From positions 1 to 31,841 of IMG/VR virus record IMGVR_UViG_3300035190_000454: 31,841 bases of DNA. The stretch is one strand, 5' to 3'. Positions 4,139 to 15,814 of this stretch are shown here, piece by piece. The position numbers and the translations under genes are program-made. Numbering within the stretch: the stretch's first letter is position 1; every line of letters begins with the position of its first letter. Under the pieces are notes generated by a model. It was given only the letters and a program-made list of their open reading frames with translations. It did no database searches and was not told the origin of the DNA. Origin of the DNA: a virus.

Positions 4139-4211
4139 GTTGGCGGGTGGTTAGCTTTCAGAAACTACAGGCGGGAAGTGGCGGCTACTGGAAGAAAATA
4201 GTTGAGAATTT

Positions 4212-4240
4212 GGGCAACACGGGCAACAGTTCGGGCAACA
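4212..4240 (+). repeat. Right arm-type integrase sites (3 x GGGCAACA)
   Basis: GGGCAACA occurs at 4212-4219, 4221-4228 and 4233-4240, in the same orientation as the two copies left of the core. They end two bases before the integrase ATG at 4243. Integrase bound here could also repress its own gene. This favours ATG 4243 over GTG 4147 as the gene start. Confidence 0.6.
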
Positions 4241-4242
4241 GC

Positions 4243-5262
4243 ATGAGCGCCTTTCTTGTGACACCTTACCCGCAGCGACCCGGCACCCCTTGGAAGCTGA
4301 CGATTCCGCAGAAAATTTTTGGCCGTCGCATCCGCCGGTTTTACCGCACGGAGGCGGAGGCTTGGGCGGCGGGGCCGGGGTTGCTGGAGAAGTTGCAGAA
4401 GGGTGGGACGGATTCGCTGTCGGAGCAGTCGGCCTCGGGGATGTCGATGAAGTCGGCGATGCGGGATTACATCGCCTCCAAGGCGGGCAGCTCGGATCGG
4501 CATCGTGAGAAGCTGGAAAAAATATGTGGGGAGCTTTTGGATGCTTTCCCTGGCGCGGTGGCGTCGGTCACTCCGATGCAGGCGGCGAGGGTCTTTGCGA
4601 AGATCAAGGGCGCGCCGACGACGCGGGCGGGGTGGCATCGTTACGCCTCGGGATTTTTTCGGTGGTGCGTGGACATGGAGCTTCTGGACCGAAATCCATT
4701 TCGCCGCGTCGTGGCGCCGGAGGCTGAGTCGAAGCGGTCCCTGATCTCGGCGAAGGAACTCCGGGCGATTCTGGATGCCACAATGAGCGATGCGCTTCGG
4801 GCTTGGTTTTTGCTCGGTGCGTTTGCGGGGTTGAGGTCCATCGAGGTTCACAGGATGCGGTGGGAAGATGTGGATCCGAAGTCCGGCCAGATCGAGGTTC
4901 GGCGGGAGGTTTCGAAACAATCAAGCGGCCTGCCGGAGCGCATCGTGGATTTCACGGAGCCGATGAAAAAGCGGAAGGAATTTTTCAAAGGAAAATCGGG
5001 GCTGATCGTGCCGGCGAAATCGCTCCGGCTTTATCGGGAGAGGGAGGCTTTGGTTGAGCGGCTCAACAACGAGGGCGTGGTGCCGTGGGCTATGCTGCCC
5101 GAGAACGCCCTCCGCCACTCCTTCGCTACCTACCACCTCGGGCGCTGCCAGGATGCTGGCAAGACCGCGCACCAGATGGGGCATTCTTCGACGGCGCTCG
5201 TTCTCAAAACCTACGCGGTGCCGTCTCGCAAAGCGGACTGGCGGGCGTGGTGGCGGGTTTAG
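4243..5262 (+). CDS. int: Tyrosine-type phage integrase
   Basis: A 339-residue site-specific recombinase. It opens with an arm-binding-like segment (PGTPWKLTIPQKIFGRRIRRFYRTEAEA split by polar turns), then a SAM-like core-binding domain (about 65-150), then the catalytic domain. Visible active-site residues are R198 in AGLRSIE, R291 in ALRHSF, H314 in MGHSS and Y324 in LKTYA; K225 is a plausible catalytic lysine. The first His of the HxxR box is replaced by Asn (N288). It integrates and excises the phage at the tRNA-like core just upstream. GTG 4147 would extend the frame by 32 residues through the GGGCAACA repeats, so ATG 4243 is preferred. The gene is convergent with the ribbon-helix-helix gene on the minus strand. 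Confidence 0.9.
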   Translation: MSAFLVTPYPQRPGTPWKLTIPQKIFGRRIRRFYRTEAEAWAAGPGLLEKLQKGGTDSLSEQSASGMSMKSAMRDYIASKAGSSDRHREKLEKICGELLDAFPGAVASVTPMQAARVFAKIKGAPTTRAGWHRYASGFFRWCVDMELLDRNPFRRVVAPEAESKRSLISAKELRAILDATMSDALRAWFLLGAFAGLRSIEVHRMRWEDVDPKSGQIEVRREVSKQSSGLPERIVDFTEPMKKRKEFFKGKSGLIVPAKSLRLYREREALVERLNNEGVVPWAMLPENALRHSFATYHLGRCQDAGKTAHQMGHSSTALVLKTYAVPSRKADWRAWWRV

Positions 5263-5277
5263 CGCTGTTATGTGCGC

Positions 5278-5327
5278 ATACAAAAAAGATATTCTGCTTT
5301 TTTATTTTCCCCTAGTTTTTTTTGTAT
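5278..5327. terminator. Bidirectional terminator between convergent genes
   Basis: ATACAAAAAA (5278-5287) pairs perfectly with TTTTTTGTAT (5318-5327). A second inner pairing AAAAAAG/CTTTTTT (5282-5288, 5297-5303) is also possible. Both strands have a T-run after the stem. It sits between the integrase stop and the end of the minus-strand gene, and overlaps the last codons of the latter. Confidence 0.6.
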
Positions 5328-5574
5328 AGATGGTAGGAGAGGAGTGTCGGGCAGTTATTGCAGTCTCTTCTTTGCTAGCGGGCTGATCCTGCATCAAGAT
5401 TTTTTCGTTTTCTTCTCTGATTTTCGCCTGCTCGACTGCGTCAGCAATGATGGTTGAAATGGCGGTCTTGGAGAGCCTCGATTTTTTGTTTTCTTCGGCC
5501 TGCCTTTTGATCACCCAAGCGTGCAGATCATTTGGTAAAGATATGTTCAATTTTTGGTGCGTTTTCTCTTTCAT
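5302..5574 (-). CDS. Ribbon-helix-helix regulator, candidate lysogeny repressor
   Basis: The only convincing minus-strand gene in the window. The 90-residue product has a short N-terminal strand (HQKLNISLPNDLHAWV, about 6-21) followed by two helices, the pattern of Arc/CopG-type ribbon-helix-helix DNA-binding proteins. A Gln/Glu/Lys-rich tail follows. A TAGGAG Shine-Dalgarno site lies close before the ATG. The gene is AT-richer than its neighbours. It faces a second ribbon-helix-helix gene across a 172-base gap holding repeated GTAGCACC sites, one of which overlaps this gene's ribosome-binding site. This layout is typical of a repressor/Cro switch. The repressor role is inferred. Confidence 0.72.
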   Translation of the reverse strand: MKEKTHQKLNISLPNDLHAWVIKRQAEENKKSRLSKTAISTIIADAVEQAKIREENEKILMQDQPASKEETAITARHSSPTIYTKKTRGK

Positions 5575-5580
5575 ATACTC

Positions 5581-5746
5581 CTACCAGTAGCACCGCGCAC
5601 ACTACCGCGCAAATTTTTCTGAAAATTTATTTTCGCCCGCAAACCTAGTGTTCATGCGGATGTCAATAGAAATCTTCGTATGGGGTAAACACCCCATTGA
5701 CTTTTTTTATTGCTCTACCGGTAGCACCAAAGATATCGGTAGCACC
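5581..5746. promoter_or_regulatory. Divergent control region with candidate operators
   Basis: Three related sites: CTACCAGTAGCACC at 5581-5594, CTACCGGTAGCACC at 5715-5728 and TATCGGTAGCACC at 5734-5746. CTACCGGTAG is a perfect 10-bp palindrome, and the latter two sites are spaced 19 bases apart or fewer. The first overlaps the ribosome-binding site of the minus gene and the last touches the ATG of the plus gene. Another inverted repeat, ATGGGGT-AAAC-ACCCCAT, lies at 5680-5697 and is followed by TTGACT, a possible -35 element; no clear -10 box was found. The sites suit binding by one or both flanking ribbon-helix-helix proteins. Confidence 0.6.
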
Positions 5747-5908
5747 ATGCAAAGCGCATACACCAAAACGAGCGTGAGCCTCCCGAGCGAACTCGCGGAA
5801 TGGCTCCGCCAGAAGTCAGAGCAAAACGGGGGAACACCGATCAGTCGCTTAATCGCGGCGGCGATTCGCCAACAAGTGAGCAACGAAAAACGGAGGGCGA
5901 AGAAATGA
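5747..5908 (+). CDS. Small ribbon-helix-helix regulator (Cro-like position)
   Basis: A 53-residue protein with a YTKTSVSLPSELAEWLRQKS core: a beta strand then a helix, followed by a second helix with PISRLIAAAIRQQV and a basic tail. This is a compact ribbon-helix-helix domain. ATG 5747 is chosen because it directly follows the third GTAGCACC site and begins exactly at the domain; an upstream ATG at 5648 would translate the operator region. No good Shine-Dalgarno site is visible. Its stop overlaps the next gene as ATGA. By position it is the first gene of the early rightward operon, like Cro in lambda. Confidence 0.65.
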   Translation: MQSAYTKTSVSLPSELAEWLRQKSEQNGGTPISRLIAAAIRQQVSNEKRRAKK

Positions 5909-6138
5909 ACCTCTCCGATGTCTACATCAACATGGACGAGGCTCGGCGCCTTTCGGGTTTTTCCAGCCGCTCGATCCGCGACTACATCAAGCGCGGTGAA
6001 TTTGCGGCAAGCCTCCCACGGGGCCGGTGCGGTGGTTGGCACATCGTCAGGGAATCCTTCCTCGACTGGTGGGGCTATCGGAACGCATCGACGGCAAACC
6101 GCACGACGATCCCAGCACGGAAACGGAGGGCCGCTTAA
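5905..6138 (+). CDS. Helix-turn-helix protein, excisionase-like
   Basis: A 77-residue protein with a winged helix-turn-helix of the MerR/excisionase (HTH_17) kind: YINMDEARRLSGFSSRSIRD forms the two helices, then YIKRGEF and GGWHIVRESFLDWW form the wing and last helix. The C-terminal 20 residues are basic. A GGAGG site lies ten bases before the ATG, and the start overlaps the previous stop. Its position just after the control region and near int would suit an excision or regulatory factor. The exact role is inferred. Confidence 0.65.
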   Translation: MNLSDVYINMDEARRLSGFSSRSIRDYIKRGEFAASLPRGRCGGWHIVRESFLDWWGYRNASTANRTTIPARKRRAA

Positions 6139-7575: not shown

Positions 7576-8319
7576 ATGAGCGACACGCTCGAAATCATTG
7601 TCTCGGGAAGTCTTCCCAGCCCGCAGATCGAGCTGTCGCCTGCGGCCTTCAACGCCAGAACGATGGCGTTGGAGGCGAGCGGGCGCATCAAGGCGATTGC
7701 CTCGGTGGCGGATCTCGACGCGGCGGCCGGCGCGCTGACGAAACTCAAATCCCTCACCCGCTCGGTGGAGGACAGCCGCAAGGAGGTGAAAGCCCCGGTC
7801 CTCGAGGTCGGCAAGCGCATCGATGCCACGGCGAAGGATTACCTCGCCCCGCTCGAGGTGGAGGCCAAGCGCCTCTCGGTGATTGTGGGGGCCTACCAAG
7901 AAGCCGCCAGGCGAAAATCCGAGAATGACCGCGAAGAAGCGGCTCGGGTGCAGGCCGAGGCTTTGGCGGAGTTAAACGCCAAGCAGGCGGAAGCTCTTGC
8001 GAATGGTGACGAGGCGGCAGCCGATGCCGCCCGTGCCGAGGCAGCGGACAAGATCGCGGCGAGCCAGTTGGCCGTGATCGATGCCGAGGGGCCGAAGCCC
8101 CAGGGAATCGTGACCAGAACCTCGTGGAAATTTGAGGTGGTGGACATCACCGCCCTCCATGCCGCCCGCCCGGAACTCTGCCTCATCGAGCCGAACAACG
8201 CCGCAATCCGTGCCGTAGTGAAAACAGGCGCACAAATCCCCGGCCTGCGCGTCTGGCAGGAGGCCGGAGCGATTGTGCGGGGGACAACCCAAATCAAGCC
8301 GGAGGAATACGATTACTGA
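7576..8319 (+). CDS. Coiled-coil phage protein of the recombination module
   Basis: A 247-residue protein. Residues 45-165 are a long Ala/Glu/Lys/Arg-rich coiled coil. The C-terminal 70 residues (TRTSWKFEVVDITALHAARPEL, then IEPNNAAIRAVV and IPGLRVWQEAG) form a globular end that I have seen in phage proteins next to SSB or recombinase genes. It follows the SSB-like gene after two bases and overlaps the next start as TGATG, so the genes are co-translated. A structural or accessory role in DNA recombination is likely but not shown. No catalytic motif is visible. Confidence 0.55.
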   Translation: MSDTLEIIVSGSLPSPQIELSPAAFNARTMALEASGRIKAIASVADLDAAAGALTKLKSLTRSVEDSRKEVKAPVLEVGKRIDATAKDYLAPLEVEAKRLSVIVGAYQEAARRKSENDREEAARVQAEALAELNAKQAEALANGDEAAADAARAEAADKIAASQLAVIDAEGPKPQGIVTRTSWKFEVVDITALHAARPELCLIEPNNAAIRAVVKTGAQIPGLRVWQEAGAIVRGTTQIKPEEYDY

Positions 8320-8504
8320 TGAAAGCGAAAACTACTTATCTAACACTTGATGAGGCGTGCGAAATATTGCGCGTCTGTAAACGCACTCTCAGGCGATACA
8401 TAAAAGACGGAAAGATTACTTCTGTCCGAATTGGCCGAAGACATCTTTTTCGGGAAACTGACCTTCTGACTTTACCAGCGAGCAAAGCTCATGACCCTCG
8501 CTGA
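8319..8504 (+). CDS. Small helix-turn-helix (excisionase/MerR-like) protein
   Basis: A 61-residue winged helix-turn-helix: LTLDEACEILRVCKRTLRRY gives the two helices, and IKDGKITSVRIGRRHLFRETDL gives the wing (18+ residues, HTH_17-type). The gene is clearly AT-richer than its neighbours and uses AT-ending codons, so it may be a recent arrival. It overlaps both neighbours. A second protein of the same fold is encoded at 5905. Either could be the excisionase. Confidence 0.7.
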   Translation: MKAKTTYLTLDEACEILRVCKRTLRRYIKDGKITSVRIGRRHLFRETDLLTLPASKAHDPR

Positions 8505-10362: not shown

Positions 10363-10622
10363 CAACACAACTCGACCTTTTTGGAACCCTCCCGAACGAA
10401 CGCCTGCATCGATATTGGCGCAAGCGCCTCCGTGATTGGCCGAGGGAGGTTTTGGAATCCCGCCATCACATCCACACAACCGGATGGAGCATGGCTTCCC
10501 AAGGCGGATGGTTTGCTGACCTCCTGCACCGCGATGGGGCGATGGGAGAAATGGAATATCTGCGGTGGCAGGATTTTGAGCGTCGGATCAAACGCTGGGA
10601 ACTCAAGAAACTTAATCAATGA
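10359..10622 (+). CDS. Small Trp/Arg-rich protein of unknown function
   Basis: An 87-residue product overlapping the helicase stop by ATGA. It is rich in Trp, Arg and His, with a WRKRLRDWPREVLESRHH helix, a GWSMASQGGWFADLLHRDG segment and a basic C-terminus. No known motif is recognised. Its stop overlaps an ATG that starts a copied fragment of the primase gene, which suggests that it once lay directly upstream of the primase. Confidence 0.5.
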   Translation: MTTQLDLFGTLPNERLHRYWRKRLRDWPREVLESRHHIHTTGWSMASQGGWFADLLHRDGAMGEMEYLRWQDFERRIKRWELKKLNQ

Positions 10623-10685
10623 AATCATTCAAAACCAACATCTCCCTTTTCTCCAACGCCTCCGAGGCGGCGATCAATTTTTACA
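10618..10685 (+). repeat. Chimeric scar: primase 5' copy joined to helicase 3' copy
   Basis: Bases 10618-10661 (44 bp) are identical to 12035-12078, the start of the primase gene. Bases 10660-10685 (26 bp) are identical to 10323-10348, the end of the helicase gene. The copies share only CT at 10660-10661. Beyond 10685 the sequence differs from the helicase end but still encodes a similar C-terminus (FYRGMK against FYKNLK), so this copy came from a related but different phage. Confidence 0.85.
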
Positions 10686-10699
10686 GGGGGATGAAGTGA
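10619..10699 (+). CDS. 26-residue hybrid mini-ORF before the methyltransferase
   Basis: The scar forms an in-frame open frame: 14 residues of the primase start joined to 12 residues of a helicase end. Its ATG overlaps the stop of the 87-residue gene and its TGA overlaps the GTG start of the methyltransferase, so ribosomes could pass through it to the next gene. As a protein it is probably meaningless. As a leader it may keep translation coupled. Confidence 0.4.
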   Translation: MKSFKTNISLFSNASEAAINFYRGMK

Positions 10700-12039
10700 A
10701 TGTGGATACTCCCAAAACAATTACACACATCGGCCTTTGTGCCGGATACGGCGGCATTGAGATTGGACTGCACCGAGTTATCCGAAATCTGCGCACGGTC
10801 GCTCTTTGCGAGATCGAAGCCTTCGCCTGCGCGAACTTGGTCAGCAAAATGGAGGCGGGACTCATGGACGCAGCACCTATCTGGACGGATCTTAAATCCT
10901 TCCCATGGGCAGAGTTTCGTGACCGCGTGGACATCCTCACTGGGGGCTATCCCTGCCAGCCATTCAGCGCAGCCGGAAAGCGGCTCGGCACAGAAGACCC
11001 TCGGCACCTCTGGCCTTTCATCGCAGACGGAATTCGACTTCTTCGCCCCCGACTCTGCTATTTCGAGAATGTCGAAGGACACATCTCCCTCGGACTCCGA
11101 GAAGTCATTGGAGAGTTGGAACAAATTGGTTACCAGACGGCGTGGGGAATATTCAGCGCGGCTGAAGTCGGCGCACCGCACCAACGCAAGCGGGTCTTCA
11201 TCCTGGCCTACGATAAGAGCCAGCGAATACAAGGACACTGGGCCGATTGGCTCCAAGAGTCACGACCACATGCTGGGCAAGGGCTACCTCTGCGCGGTGG
11301 TGACGCAGGATGCTTGGCAAACTCCAACCACCAACATGGACATGGTGAGGAGCGAGGATGGAGTCCAGAAGAGGATCGCATTTCGAGCGAGCATCGGGAG
11401 GAAGAGCATTCCAGATGGGAACTTGGGCGAGCAGATGCAGCGCCTGCATGGCCAAGCCGCCCCGGCGAACCCCAGCACGGATGGGAGCCGCCAAGGGTTG
11501 TGGGCAACACCGAGGGCGGGATGCCCAGGCAGTCGAGCCCCAGGGACTGGCGGGAAGGTGCTGGAGGAGCAGGTGAAGGGGGGCAACTGGGCAACGCCTC
11601 AAGCCCACGATGCCCAAGGCCCGAAGACACCGGAGCAGATCGAAGCGATGAGGGCCAAGGGCCATGGCGTGAAGAATTTGAACGAGATGGTGACATGGCC
11701 AACGCCGAGTGCGAGTTGCGACCAAGGCGGACCGAGCGGCCTAGCCGGCGGATCGGGCAACCGGAAGAAACTGAACTCCATGCTGTCGAGGGAGGAGGCC
11801 AAGGCAATGGGTTGCGGCAAATTGAACCCTCGCTGGGTCGAAACGCTCCAAGGCGTCTGCATGGGGTGGACCTCGCCGAGTTGTCCGGCCTCAGTCATCA
11901 AGAACTGGCCGAAATTTGTGAGTGGATGGTGCGCTGTGACAATCGAACCGACGAACTTCGCCTCCTCGGCAACGGAGTCGTGCCTGCCACAGCCGAAAGA
12001 GCTTTTCGAATTCTAATGGAAGAACTGACAAACAAATGA
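10696..12039 (+). CDS. DNA (cytosine-5) methyltransferase, Dcm-type
   Basis: A 447-residue enzyme that methylates cytosine C5 in DNA using S-adenosylmethionine, probably shielding phage DNA from host restriction. Motif I is GLCAGYGGIEIGL (about 14-26), motif IV with the catalytic Cys is GGYPCQPFSAAGKR, motif VI is FENVEG, motif VIII is HQRKRVF, and motif X is LRLLGNGVVPATA near the end. Between VIII and X lies a long Gly/Arg/Glu-rich target-recognition region with repeated [LVM]-[AG]-N-[AST] motifs. GTG 10696 is preceded by AGGGGG at a good distance. An open frame in +1 covers almost the whole gene (10700-12016). The stop overlaps the primase start. The gene appears to have entered by recombination. 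Confidence 0.85.
   Translation: MNVDTPKTITHIGLCAGYGGIEIGLHRVIRNLRTVALCEIEAFACANLVSKMEAGLMDAAPIWTDLKSFPWAEFRDRVDILTGGYPCQPFSAAGKRLGTEDPRHLWPFIADGIRLLRPRLCYFENVEGHISLGLREVIGELEQIGYQTAWGIFSAAEVGAPHQRKRVFILAYDKSQRIQGHWADWLQESRPHAGQGLPLRGGDAGCLANSNHQHGHGEERGWSPEEDRISSEHREEEHSRWELGRADAAPAWPSRPGEPQHGWEPPRVVGNTEGGMPRQSSPRDWREGAGGAGEGGQLGNASSPRCPRPEDTGADRSDEGQGPWREEFERDGDMANAECELRPRRTERPSRRIGQPEETELHAVEGGGQGNGLRQIEPSLGRNAPRRLHGVDLAELSGLSHQELAEICEWMVRCDNRTDELRLLGNGVVPATAERAFRILMEELTNK
10700..12016 (+). CDS. Overlapping +1 frame with repeated W-x-T-P motifs
   Basis: A 438-codon stop-free frame inside the methyltransferase gene, starting at ATG 10700. Its first half reads like noise. From about 11150 it shows repeated Trp motifs: WPTIRAS, WQTPTT, WATPRAG, WATPQAH and WPTPSAS, starting at 11204, 11315, 11501, 11588 and 11696, and then GKLNPRWVETL near the end. 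I recall similar W-P-T-P and KLNPxWVE motifs in phage methylase-associated proteins. They are the same bases that give the L-A-N-S type motifs in the other frame. It may be a true overlapping gene or a frame kept open by constraint on the methyltransferase. Confidence 0.35.
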   Translation: MWILPKQLHTSAFVPDTAALRLDCTELSEICARSLFARSKPSPARTWSAKWRRDSWTQHLSGRILNPSHGQSFVTAWTSSLGAIPASHSAQPESGSAQKTLGTSGLSSQTEFDFFAPDSAISRMSKDTSPSDSEKSLESWNKLVTRRRGEYSARLKSAHRTNASGSSSWPTIRASEYKDTGPIGSKSHDHMLGKGYLCAVVTQDAWQTPTTNMDMVRSEDGVQKRIAFRASIGRKSIPDGNLGEQMQRLHGQAAPANPSTDGSRQGLWATPRAGCPGSRAPGTGGKVLEEQVKGGNWATPQAHDAQGPKTPEQIEAMRAKGHGVKNLNEMVTWPTPSASCDQGGPSGLAGGSGNRKKLNSMLSREEAKAMGCGKLNPRWVETLQGVCMGWTSPSCPASVIKNWPKFVSGWCAVTIEPTNFASSATESCLPQPKELFEF

Positions 12040-15103: not shown

Positions 15104-15312
15104 GCAAACGCAAAAAACCCAAATTCGGAGGGCGCGGGAAGATCATCCAGATGACGATGGGCTATCGGGAGTTCCGCGAAGCCTGGCTCGCCAACATGCT
15201 CGATGAAATGTCCGCCGCCTGCGACCGCTTTTGGAGCAAGACGCCCGAGCGCCGGAAGATCGAGGCCGCACGCCAACGCTCGGGATTTAACTTTGGACAC
15301 TCTCATGAATAA
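15100..15312 (+). CDS. Small basic protein of unknown function
   Basis: A 70-residue product overlapping the resolvase stop by ATGA. It starts with a very basic KRKKPKFGGRGK tail that could bind nucleic acid. A helix follows (MGYREFREAWLANMLDEMSA), then WSKTPERRKIEAARQR. No known family is recognised. Its last eight bases overlap the next gene. Confidence 0.5.
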   Translation: MSKRKKPKFGGRGKIIQMTMGYREFREAWLANMLDEMSAACDRFWSKTPERRKIEAARQRSGFNFGHSHE

Positions 15313-15814
15313 CTCATTCACCGCAAGGAACGGCGAACCTGCCTATATGCCAGACTACGACCTCGACACACCCGAGGACACCCTCGCCGATGAACTCGGC
15401 ACGACGCCCGCCGTGGCTCGCAAGGTCATTGCGATGCTCCAAGCCGCCGAGGTTCGTCAGCAGGCGTTGACCCTCGGCAAAGTCGTCGGGCTTCTCCTCG
15501 AAACAAACAACCTGCCGGTCATGGCCAACGCGATCGCTTTCGCGGCCGGCCTCGACCAGCTCAACGGCAAGATGTCGCAGGCTCAGGTGGCTCGGGAGCT
15601 AAAGGTCACACGCGCCCTTGTCTCCCATTATGTCGTCGGCGTGAGGGATTTCCTATCAGGCAAAAGCCAGACCTTCGACTGCACCAAGTTCCGTAAGTCC
15701 AACAAATCGCGCCAGACCTTTCGAGAGAAGGCGACGGATCCATTCACGGCGGCCAAGGCGGCTGCCATCGCAAGATACAAAGCCAGTAACCACATCACCA
15801 CAAAATGCAAATAA
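15305..15814 (+). CDS. Helix-turn-helix protein, possible late regulator
   Basis: A 169-residue protein starting at ATG 15305. The N-terminal third is acidic (DYDLDTPEDTLADELG). A helical core follows, and then a clear helix-turn-helix at about 98-118 (MSQAQVARELKVTRALVSHY), with the usual Ala, Val and Ser positions. The C-terminal 45 residues are Lys/Arg-rich. It precedes the packaging genes, so it could switch on late genes or help DNA packaging. The DNA-binding fold is well supported; the role is not. Confidence 0.6.
   Translation: MNNSFTARNGEPAYMPDYDLDTPEDTLADELGTTPAVARKVIAMLQAAEVRQQALTLGKVVGLLLETNNLPVMANAIAFAAGLDQLNGKMSQAQVARELKVTRALVSHYVVGVRDFLSGKSQTFDCTKFRKSNKSRQTFREKATDPFTAAKAAAIARYKASNHITTKCK

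Follow-up and report, generated by a model that had tools for sequence, protein, structure and literature searches.

A putative lysis/lysogeny switch of two divergent ribbon-helix-helix repressors in a probable phage of Verrucomicrobiota

Introduction

Can a divergent pair of ribbon-helix-helix (RHH) proteins serve as the main lysogeny switch of a temperate phage? RHH repressors in phages are mainly known as side players, like Arc and Mnt of P22, or single regulators, like F55 of SSV1. The question is raised by a stretch of viral DNA of 31,841 nucleotides (IMG/VR record IMGVR_UViG_3300035190_000454; the whole stretch is called the window below), in which two small genes, A and B, diverge beside an integrase gene. 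A first-pass annotation, made without database searches, had proposed a lysogeny-type switch of two RHH proteins, similar in spirit to Arc and Mnt, at a position where helix-turn-helix repressors are usual. I performed a computational analysis of this locus and its relatives. It is considered probable, from sequence comparison, that this locus, with its two divergent RHH repressors, acts as the lysis/lysogeny switch of a temperate Verrucomicrobiota phage.

Results

The divergent arrangement of one longer and one minimal gene was confirmed with its coordinates. Gene A (5302..5574, minus strand) encodes a 90-residue protein with a variable tail, which is the proposed lysogenic repressor. Gene B (5747..5908, plus strand) encodes a minimal protein of 53 residues, which is the proposed Cro-like autorepressor, and it opens the early operon. 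A tyrosine integrase gene, int (4147..5262, plus strand; Pfam Phage_integrase, 1.6e-6; PHROG integrase, 4.6e-30), lies tail-to-tail with A. The stop codon of B overlaps by four bases with gene C (5905..6138, plus strand), whose product is an HTH_17 protein (Pfam, 3.5e-5) and the proposed excisionase of Int; the PHROG excisionase profile scored 3.4e-4 here and 4e-7 for another type of C. Replication genes follow downstream of C on the same strand; apart from A, no credible leftward gene was noticed in the window. A second HTH_17 gene (8319-8504, plus strand; 1.9e-15), also excisionase-like in PHROG, was found downstream of C, and a C-5 cytosine DNA methylase gene (10621-12039, plus strand; Pfam, 5.2e-32) lies between replication genes. 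Shortly before the terminase genes, a 203-residue protein (15203-15814, plus strand) has weak helix-turn-helix matches (HTH_3, 0.0022; winged HTH). It is possibly a late-gene regulator and is the only other regulator candidate noticed apart from the HTH_17 genes. No end repeats were found in the window, which may be incomplete, and another regulator could lie outside it.

Are A and B really RHH proteins? For B, the annotated identity holds by weak profile matches: the PHROG 'Arc-like repressor' profile scored 4.7e-5 and Pfam RHH_1 scored 0.0014 with 18.9 bits, just below the Pfam cut-off of 20.5. For A, it is supported only through homology to B (hhalign, 96.7%; BLASTP, 6e-7), and direct family-profile searches gave chance-level matches below the thresholds and no RHH family. 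Among the class II relatives described below, B matched RHH_5 (2e-4) and A matched RHH_1 (0.0026). Judged from these comparisons, A and B are distantly homologous, and A is taken as an RHH protein through its homology to B. Neither matched a helix-turn-helix family in Pfam or PHROG, and phmmer and profile searches of PDB sequences with A and B returned no RHH entry, including no Arc or Mnt chain. The AF2 model of A has two helices, a longer linker, and a disordered tail, and its fold matches were to ParD-type RHH proteins. The AF2 monomer of B has the two helices and no strand, and RHH proteins (NikR, CopG, Arc, and others) dominate its fold matches. The fold matches of both proteins were weak (E > 0.6).

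Across 21 relatives down to 29% identity, the invariant residues of A are M1, K8, L9, N10, S12, P14, L17, H18, and S40. The putative DNA-facing ribbon residues K8, N10, and S12 are thus among the few positions that never change in these 21 sequences; a relative found later, L091, has T at position 12. The ribbon residues K7, S9, and S11 of B are invariant in 18 relatives. B is the more conserved protein, which would fit reversed roles, with B as the lysogenic repressor autoregulating its own operon with C, and A as the antagonist; the class of A and B alone cannot assign the roles. However, B would share a transcript with the proposed excisionase gene and the early genes, which is odd for a maintenance repressor, whereas A is the divergent leftward gene, like CI and Mnt. 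A reversal is therefore regarded as quite unlikely. The roles preferred here (A as lysogenic repressor, B as Cro-like autorepressor, and C as excisionase) are inferred.

The gap between A and B (5575-5746, 172 bases) contains the three annotated copies of GTAGCACC at positions 5587, 5721, and 5739 of the plus strand. These are the only exact copies in the window, and the other strand has none. An 8-mer with at least three copies appeared in 28 of 20,000 dinucleotide shuffles of the region, which is rare by chance. The sites can be extended to CTACC(A/G)GTAGCACC or ATATCGGTAGCACC. Operator 1, CTACCAGTAGCACC (5581..5594, plus strand), is a near-palindromic extended site conserved in 23 distinct gaps. 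Operator 2, CTACCGGTAGCACC (5715..5728, plus strand), is a perfect 10-bp palindrome with a tail (CTACCGGTAG followed by CACC) and lies at the expected place of the −10 element of the B promoter. Operator 3, ATATCGGTAGCACC (5733..5746, plus strand), lies 18 bp past operator 2; its core (5739-5746) abuts the ATG of B at 5747, so that the annotated contact with the right start codon is correct. The annotated overlap with the ribosome-binding site of the left gene needs a refinement. The core of operator 1 (5587-5594) is just upstream of the Shine-Dalgarno-like TAGGAG of A (5578..5583, minus strand, read from the sequence), and it is the extended site that overlaps this element. In 23 distinct related gaps, 22 of the 24 core operator positions are invariant versus 64 of the 148 other gap positions (Fisher p = 1e-5).

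Between operators 1 and 2 lies a stretch that is called the constant scaffold (5633..5712). It contains two outward-facing TTGAC elements, one on the minus strand (5666-5661) and one on the plus strand (5697-5702). A search for a sigma-70 promoter consensus found none; thus, only the conserved TTGAC elements indicate where the presumed back-to-back promoters may lie. A hairpin-like sequence, ATGGGGTAAACACCCCAT, is also present in the scaffold (5680-5697) and overlaps the rightward TTGAC. Some relatives retain it, and in others (e.g., L065 and L069) it is disrupted.

Where do relatives of this locus occur? No relatives of A or B were found in 50,697 phage records, and a motif search of genome contigs revealed no relatives of B. 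They were found by a profile search of integrase-bearing metagenome-assembled genomes (MAGs). The Int profile search yielded three loci, all in Verrucomicrobia MAGs, and the best phage match of the terminase was that of Akkermansia phage Moulinsart (25.6%). From these two observations, the host phylum is probably Verrucomicrobiota. One match among 388 genomes of the phylum was rejected as unrelated; it lies beside a PIN-like toxin gene, as read from the sequence. The searches yielded no intact prophage bounded by both host junctions, so that the evidence for lysogeny is limited to Int, the HTH_17 gene, and the MAG contigs. In total, 63 other contigs share the Int-A-B-C layout, in which Int and A converge, A and B diverge, and C follows B; this order is kept in the relatives.

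One of the MAG contigs, L090, has the same Int/C frame as the window and a scaffold 95% identical to that of the window. Its RHH proteins are different, and GTGCACC stands where the window has GTAGCACC. A search with the scaffold pattern found 57 viral loci, which were sorted into classes; L119 was discarded as a chance match within a coding sequence. The classes were assigned from the proteins alone, and 64 contigs were tabulated. Class I (32 contigs) has the word GTAGCACC with the ribbons K-N-S in A and K-S-S in B. Class II (11 contigs) has GTAATACC near A and GTATGACC near B, and both ribbons are K-S-S. Class III (20 contigs) has GTGCACC with K-G-S in A and K-G-C in B, and class IV (one contig) has TTGGCAA with T-N-S in A and A-S-S in B. 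The operator word of the own class is present near both start codons in all 64 contigs. Words of other classes were limited to one stray, a single extra class II pattern match in one class I locus. Across classes, the scaffold of about 80 bp is 75-95% identical, whereas the operator-bearing flanks are about 41-57% identical. Since most relatives are uncultured viral contigs and several are near-identical, the locus counts overstate the number of independent events.

Within class I, the operators hardly vary even where A has diverged to about 30%, so that class I phages of diverged sequence would be homoimmune; this counts among the points against the proposed switch. The near-constancy was first taken as evidence against an immunity function, a view that was reversed when further classes were found in the same slot. 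The tails of A are exchanged between classes (e.g., in L105 and L020), and the tail therefore does not set the specificity. In L105, L110, and L130-L133, a class II A ends in a C-terminal tail that is also found in some A proteins of class I; the tail is thus exchanged separately from the DNA-binding part.

An RHH pair without the scaffold was found in a Verrucomicrobia MAG (L092; G002 C18, about 17,000). Its A has the class II ribbon KFSISM, and its word is GTAATACC, so that it may count as an independent replicate of the class II ribbon-word pairing. Sites of the type GTAATACC/GTCATACC touch both start codons. No phage gene was seen within 2.2 kb of this pair, which may be what is left of a prophage or else a domesticated regulator. 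Such a case raises the possibility that A and B are a mobile pair of RHH antitoxins or plasmid-type copy or partition regulators that play no part in lysogeny. Proteins such as CopG and ParD typically have the RHH fold, and ParD, VapB, and CopG are among the fold matches of A and B taken together. However, the slot that lies between Int and C does not vary, and the families found include no recognised plasmid replication gene. The toxin-antitoxin version was rejected because no toxin gene adjoins A or B. This explanation as a whole is very unlikely, and the lysogeny switch remains the preferred reading.

Are there more classes? When viral contigs were searched for Int, 80 loci were obtained. 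Among those that were screened by motif, 8, 5, 10, and 3 fell into classes I to IV, respectively, five were too short to judge, and 22 were left as 'other'. RHH-like genes were present in 16 of these 22 and in the remaining ones that could be read (L150, L189, L213, and L220-L222). Among them are further divergent pairs, which appear to represent at least four further classes, giving at least eight in all: class V (the L149 group; TTGTCAA/CAATTGTT), class VI (the L188 and L214 group; GTGCACA), class VII (L206, L208, L209, and L217; GTAGTAA-like), and class VIII (L211; ATATGATCGATCATAT). Five loci (L088, L215, and L220-L222) share the Int family and have RHH-like genes in tandem on the plus strand, followed by C-type HTH genes. 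The boundaries of classes V-VIII and of this tandem group, as well as their operator words, were read by eye without statistics. No CI/Cro-type helix-turn-helix pair was seen in the slots read among the Int relatives; the regulators there are all RHH proteins.

The flanking genes vary together. In 26 distinct loci, the distances of Int and C correlate with r = 0.964. Removing the contribution of A and B leaves r = 0.93, a value that none of 5000 permutations reached. This permutation test ignores relatedness and is only indicative. The A and B distances correlate at 0.925 in the same number of distinct loci. Since Int and C co-vary though they flank the A-B pair, C is best explained as the excisionase of Int, and A, B, and the operators are best explained as a separate exchangeable unit, as far as sequence comparison can tell. 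One Int/C type was found with all of classes I to IV, and a second Int/C type was found with the first three of them. The switch classes are, in contrast to C, combined freely with different integrase types. Such a pattern would be expected of an immunity cassette that can be exchanged within a fixed int/xis frame, with the proteins and their operators changing jointly from phage to phage while the frame stays the same. Superinfection immunity itself is inferred. The annotated lysogeny-type switch gains its support from this co-change of the operators and the RHH pair within the constant scaffold and the int/xis frame.

It could still be argued that the pair controls only integration, excision, and itself, and that superinfection immunity comes from another gene. 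The pair does lie between Int and the probable excisionase, its operators are found nowhere else in the window, and an unrelated gene with weak HTH matches (15203-15814) could also act as a regulator. Against such a local function, B and C head a rightward operon that reaches the replication genes, A is the sole credible leftward gene noticed, and the exchange of matched repressor/operator sets is the expected product of selection for different immunity types. I consider this explanation unlikely, though not negligible, and retain that of a main lysogeny switch.

Discussion

How would such a switch work? Two promoters may lie back to back in the constant scaffold. Leftward transcription would produce A, the lysogenic repressor. 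Rightward transcription would yield B and C, the latter as the excisionase, and continue into the early replication genes. The closely similar beta-ribbons of A (K-N-S) and B (K-S-S) are predicted to insert into the GTAGCACC operators. Operators 2 and 3 would span the region from the presumed −35 element to the start of B, and operator 1 would span the leader and the ribosome-binding region of A. By occupying operators 2 and 3, A would turn off the lytic operon including xis. By occupying operator 1 and its own sites, B would shut off A and limit itself. Sequence comparison shows the gene layout, the operators and the way they change with the RHH pair, as well as the link between Int and C. 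It is inferred that A and B bind DNA, in which direction each regulatory step runs, that the switch confers immunity, and what induces the prophage.

In the immI region of P22, mnt is divergent from arc-ant, and the 53-residue gene is the first in its operon. The Arc/Mnt-type proteins of P22 have 82 and 53 residues (PMC7549136), and immI is a secondary immunity region inside the late operon that controls the antirepressor gene ant (PMC8022706). The annotated likeness to Arc/Mnt is borne out in layout and size (90 and 53 versus 82 and 53 residues): both systems are divergent pairs of small RHH repressors with a common control region, one longer and one of exactly 53 residues. It is not borne out in genomic role. 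No antirepressor family was seen among the scanned genes of the window, and the gene after B encodes an HTH_17 protein. The present pair is located at int/xis, where the early operon begins, and forms a series of alleles. P22 has a separate c2/cro switch adjacent to immI, whereas no c2/cro-type helix-turn-helix pair was found here. Moreover, Arc and Mnt have no detectable sequence similarity to A or B. The RHH pair here looks like the main switch, without ant.

The lambda-type CI/Cro switch shares divergent genes for a repressor and a Cro-like protein, common operators, a location next to int/xis, and exchange as immunity cassettes. Its proteins, however, are of the helix-turn-helix type, and CI has a cleavable C-terminal domain that A lacks. 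The simplest reading is an immunity switch based on RHH proteins. Its layout equals that of mnt/arc and its inferred mode of action resembles that of CI/Cro, but the locus belongs neither to immI (no ant, no similarity to Arc or Mnt) nor to CI/Cro (no helix-turn-helix). F55 of SSV1 is a single-domain RHH protein that keeps the carrier state and binds repeated sites at the early promoters and its own promoter (PMC9608457). It shares with the proposed switch the RHH fold and the repeated sites, but it is one protein rather than a divergent pair, it belongs to an archaeal virus, and its sequence is unrelated. Pseudomonas Pf prophages have a gene for an Arc/Mnt-domain protein near the repressor and excisionase genes (PMC7549136); these proteins differ in that they have about 145-225 residues, do not form a divergent pair, and are unproven in function.

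What is new here is a divergent RHH pair that is apparently the primary switch, with relatives that supply many matched protein/operator sets in a fixed frame. With moderate confidence, I propose a whole lineage of Verrucomicrobiota phages whose main switch consists of RHH proteins only. Its heteroimmune classes, eight or more in number, would be swapped through recombination within the conserved scaffold and would together form a natural table of ribbons and operators. Putative entries of this table are, for A, K-N-S with GTAGCACC, K-S-S with GTAATACC, and K-G-S with GTGCACC. These natural sets make the reading of DNA by the RHH ribbon directly testable, and likewise the evolution of immunity specificity outside the helix-turn-helix repressors. 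They may also give access to the study of lysogeny in Verrucomicrobiota, a phylum with phages that have received little attention.
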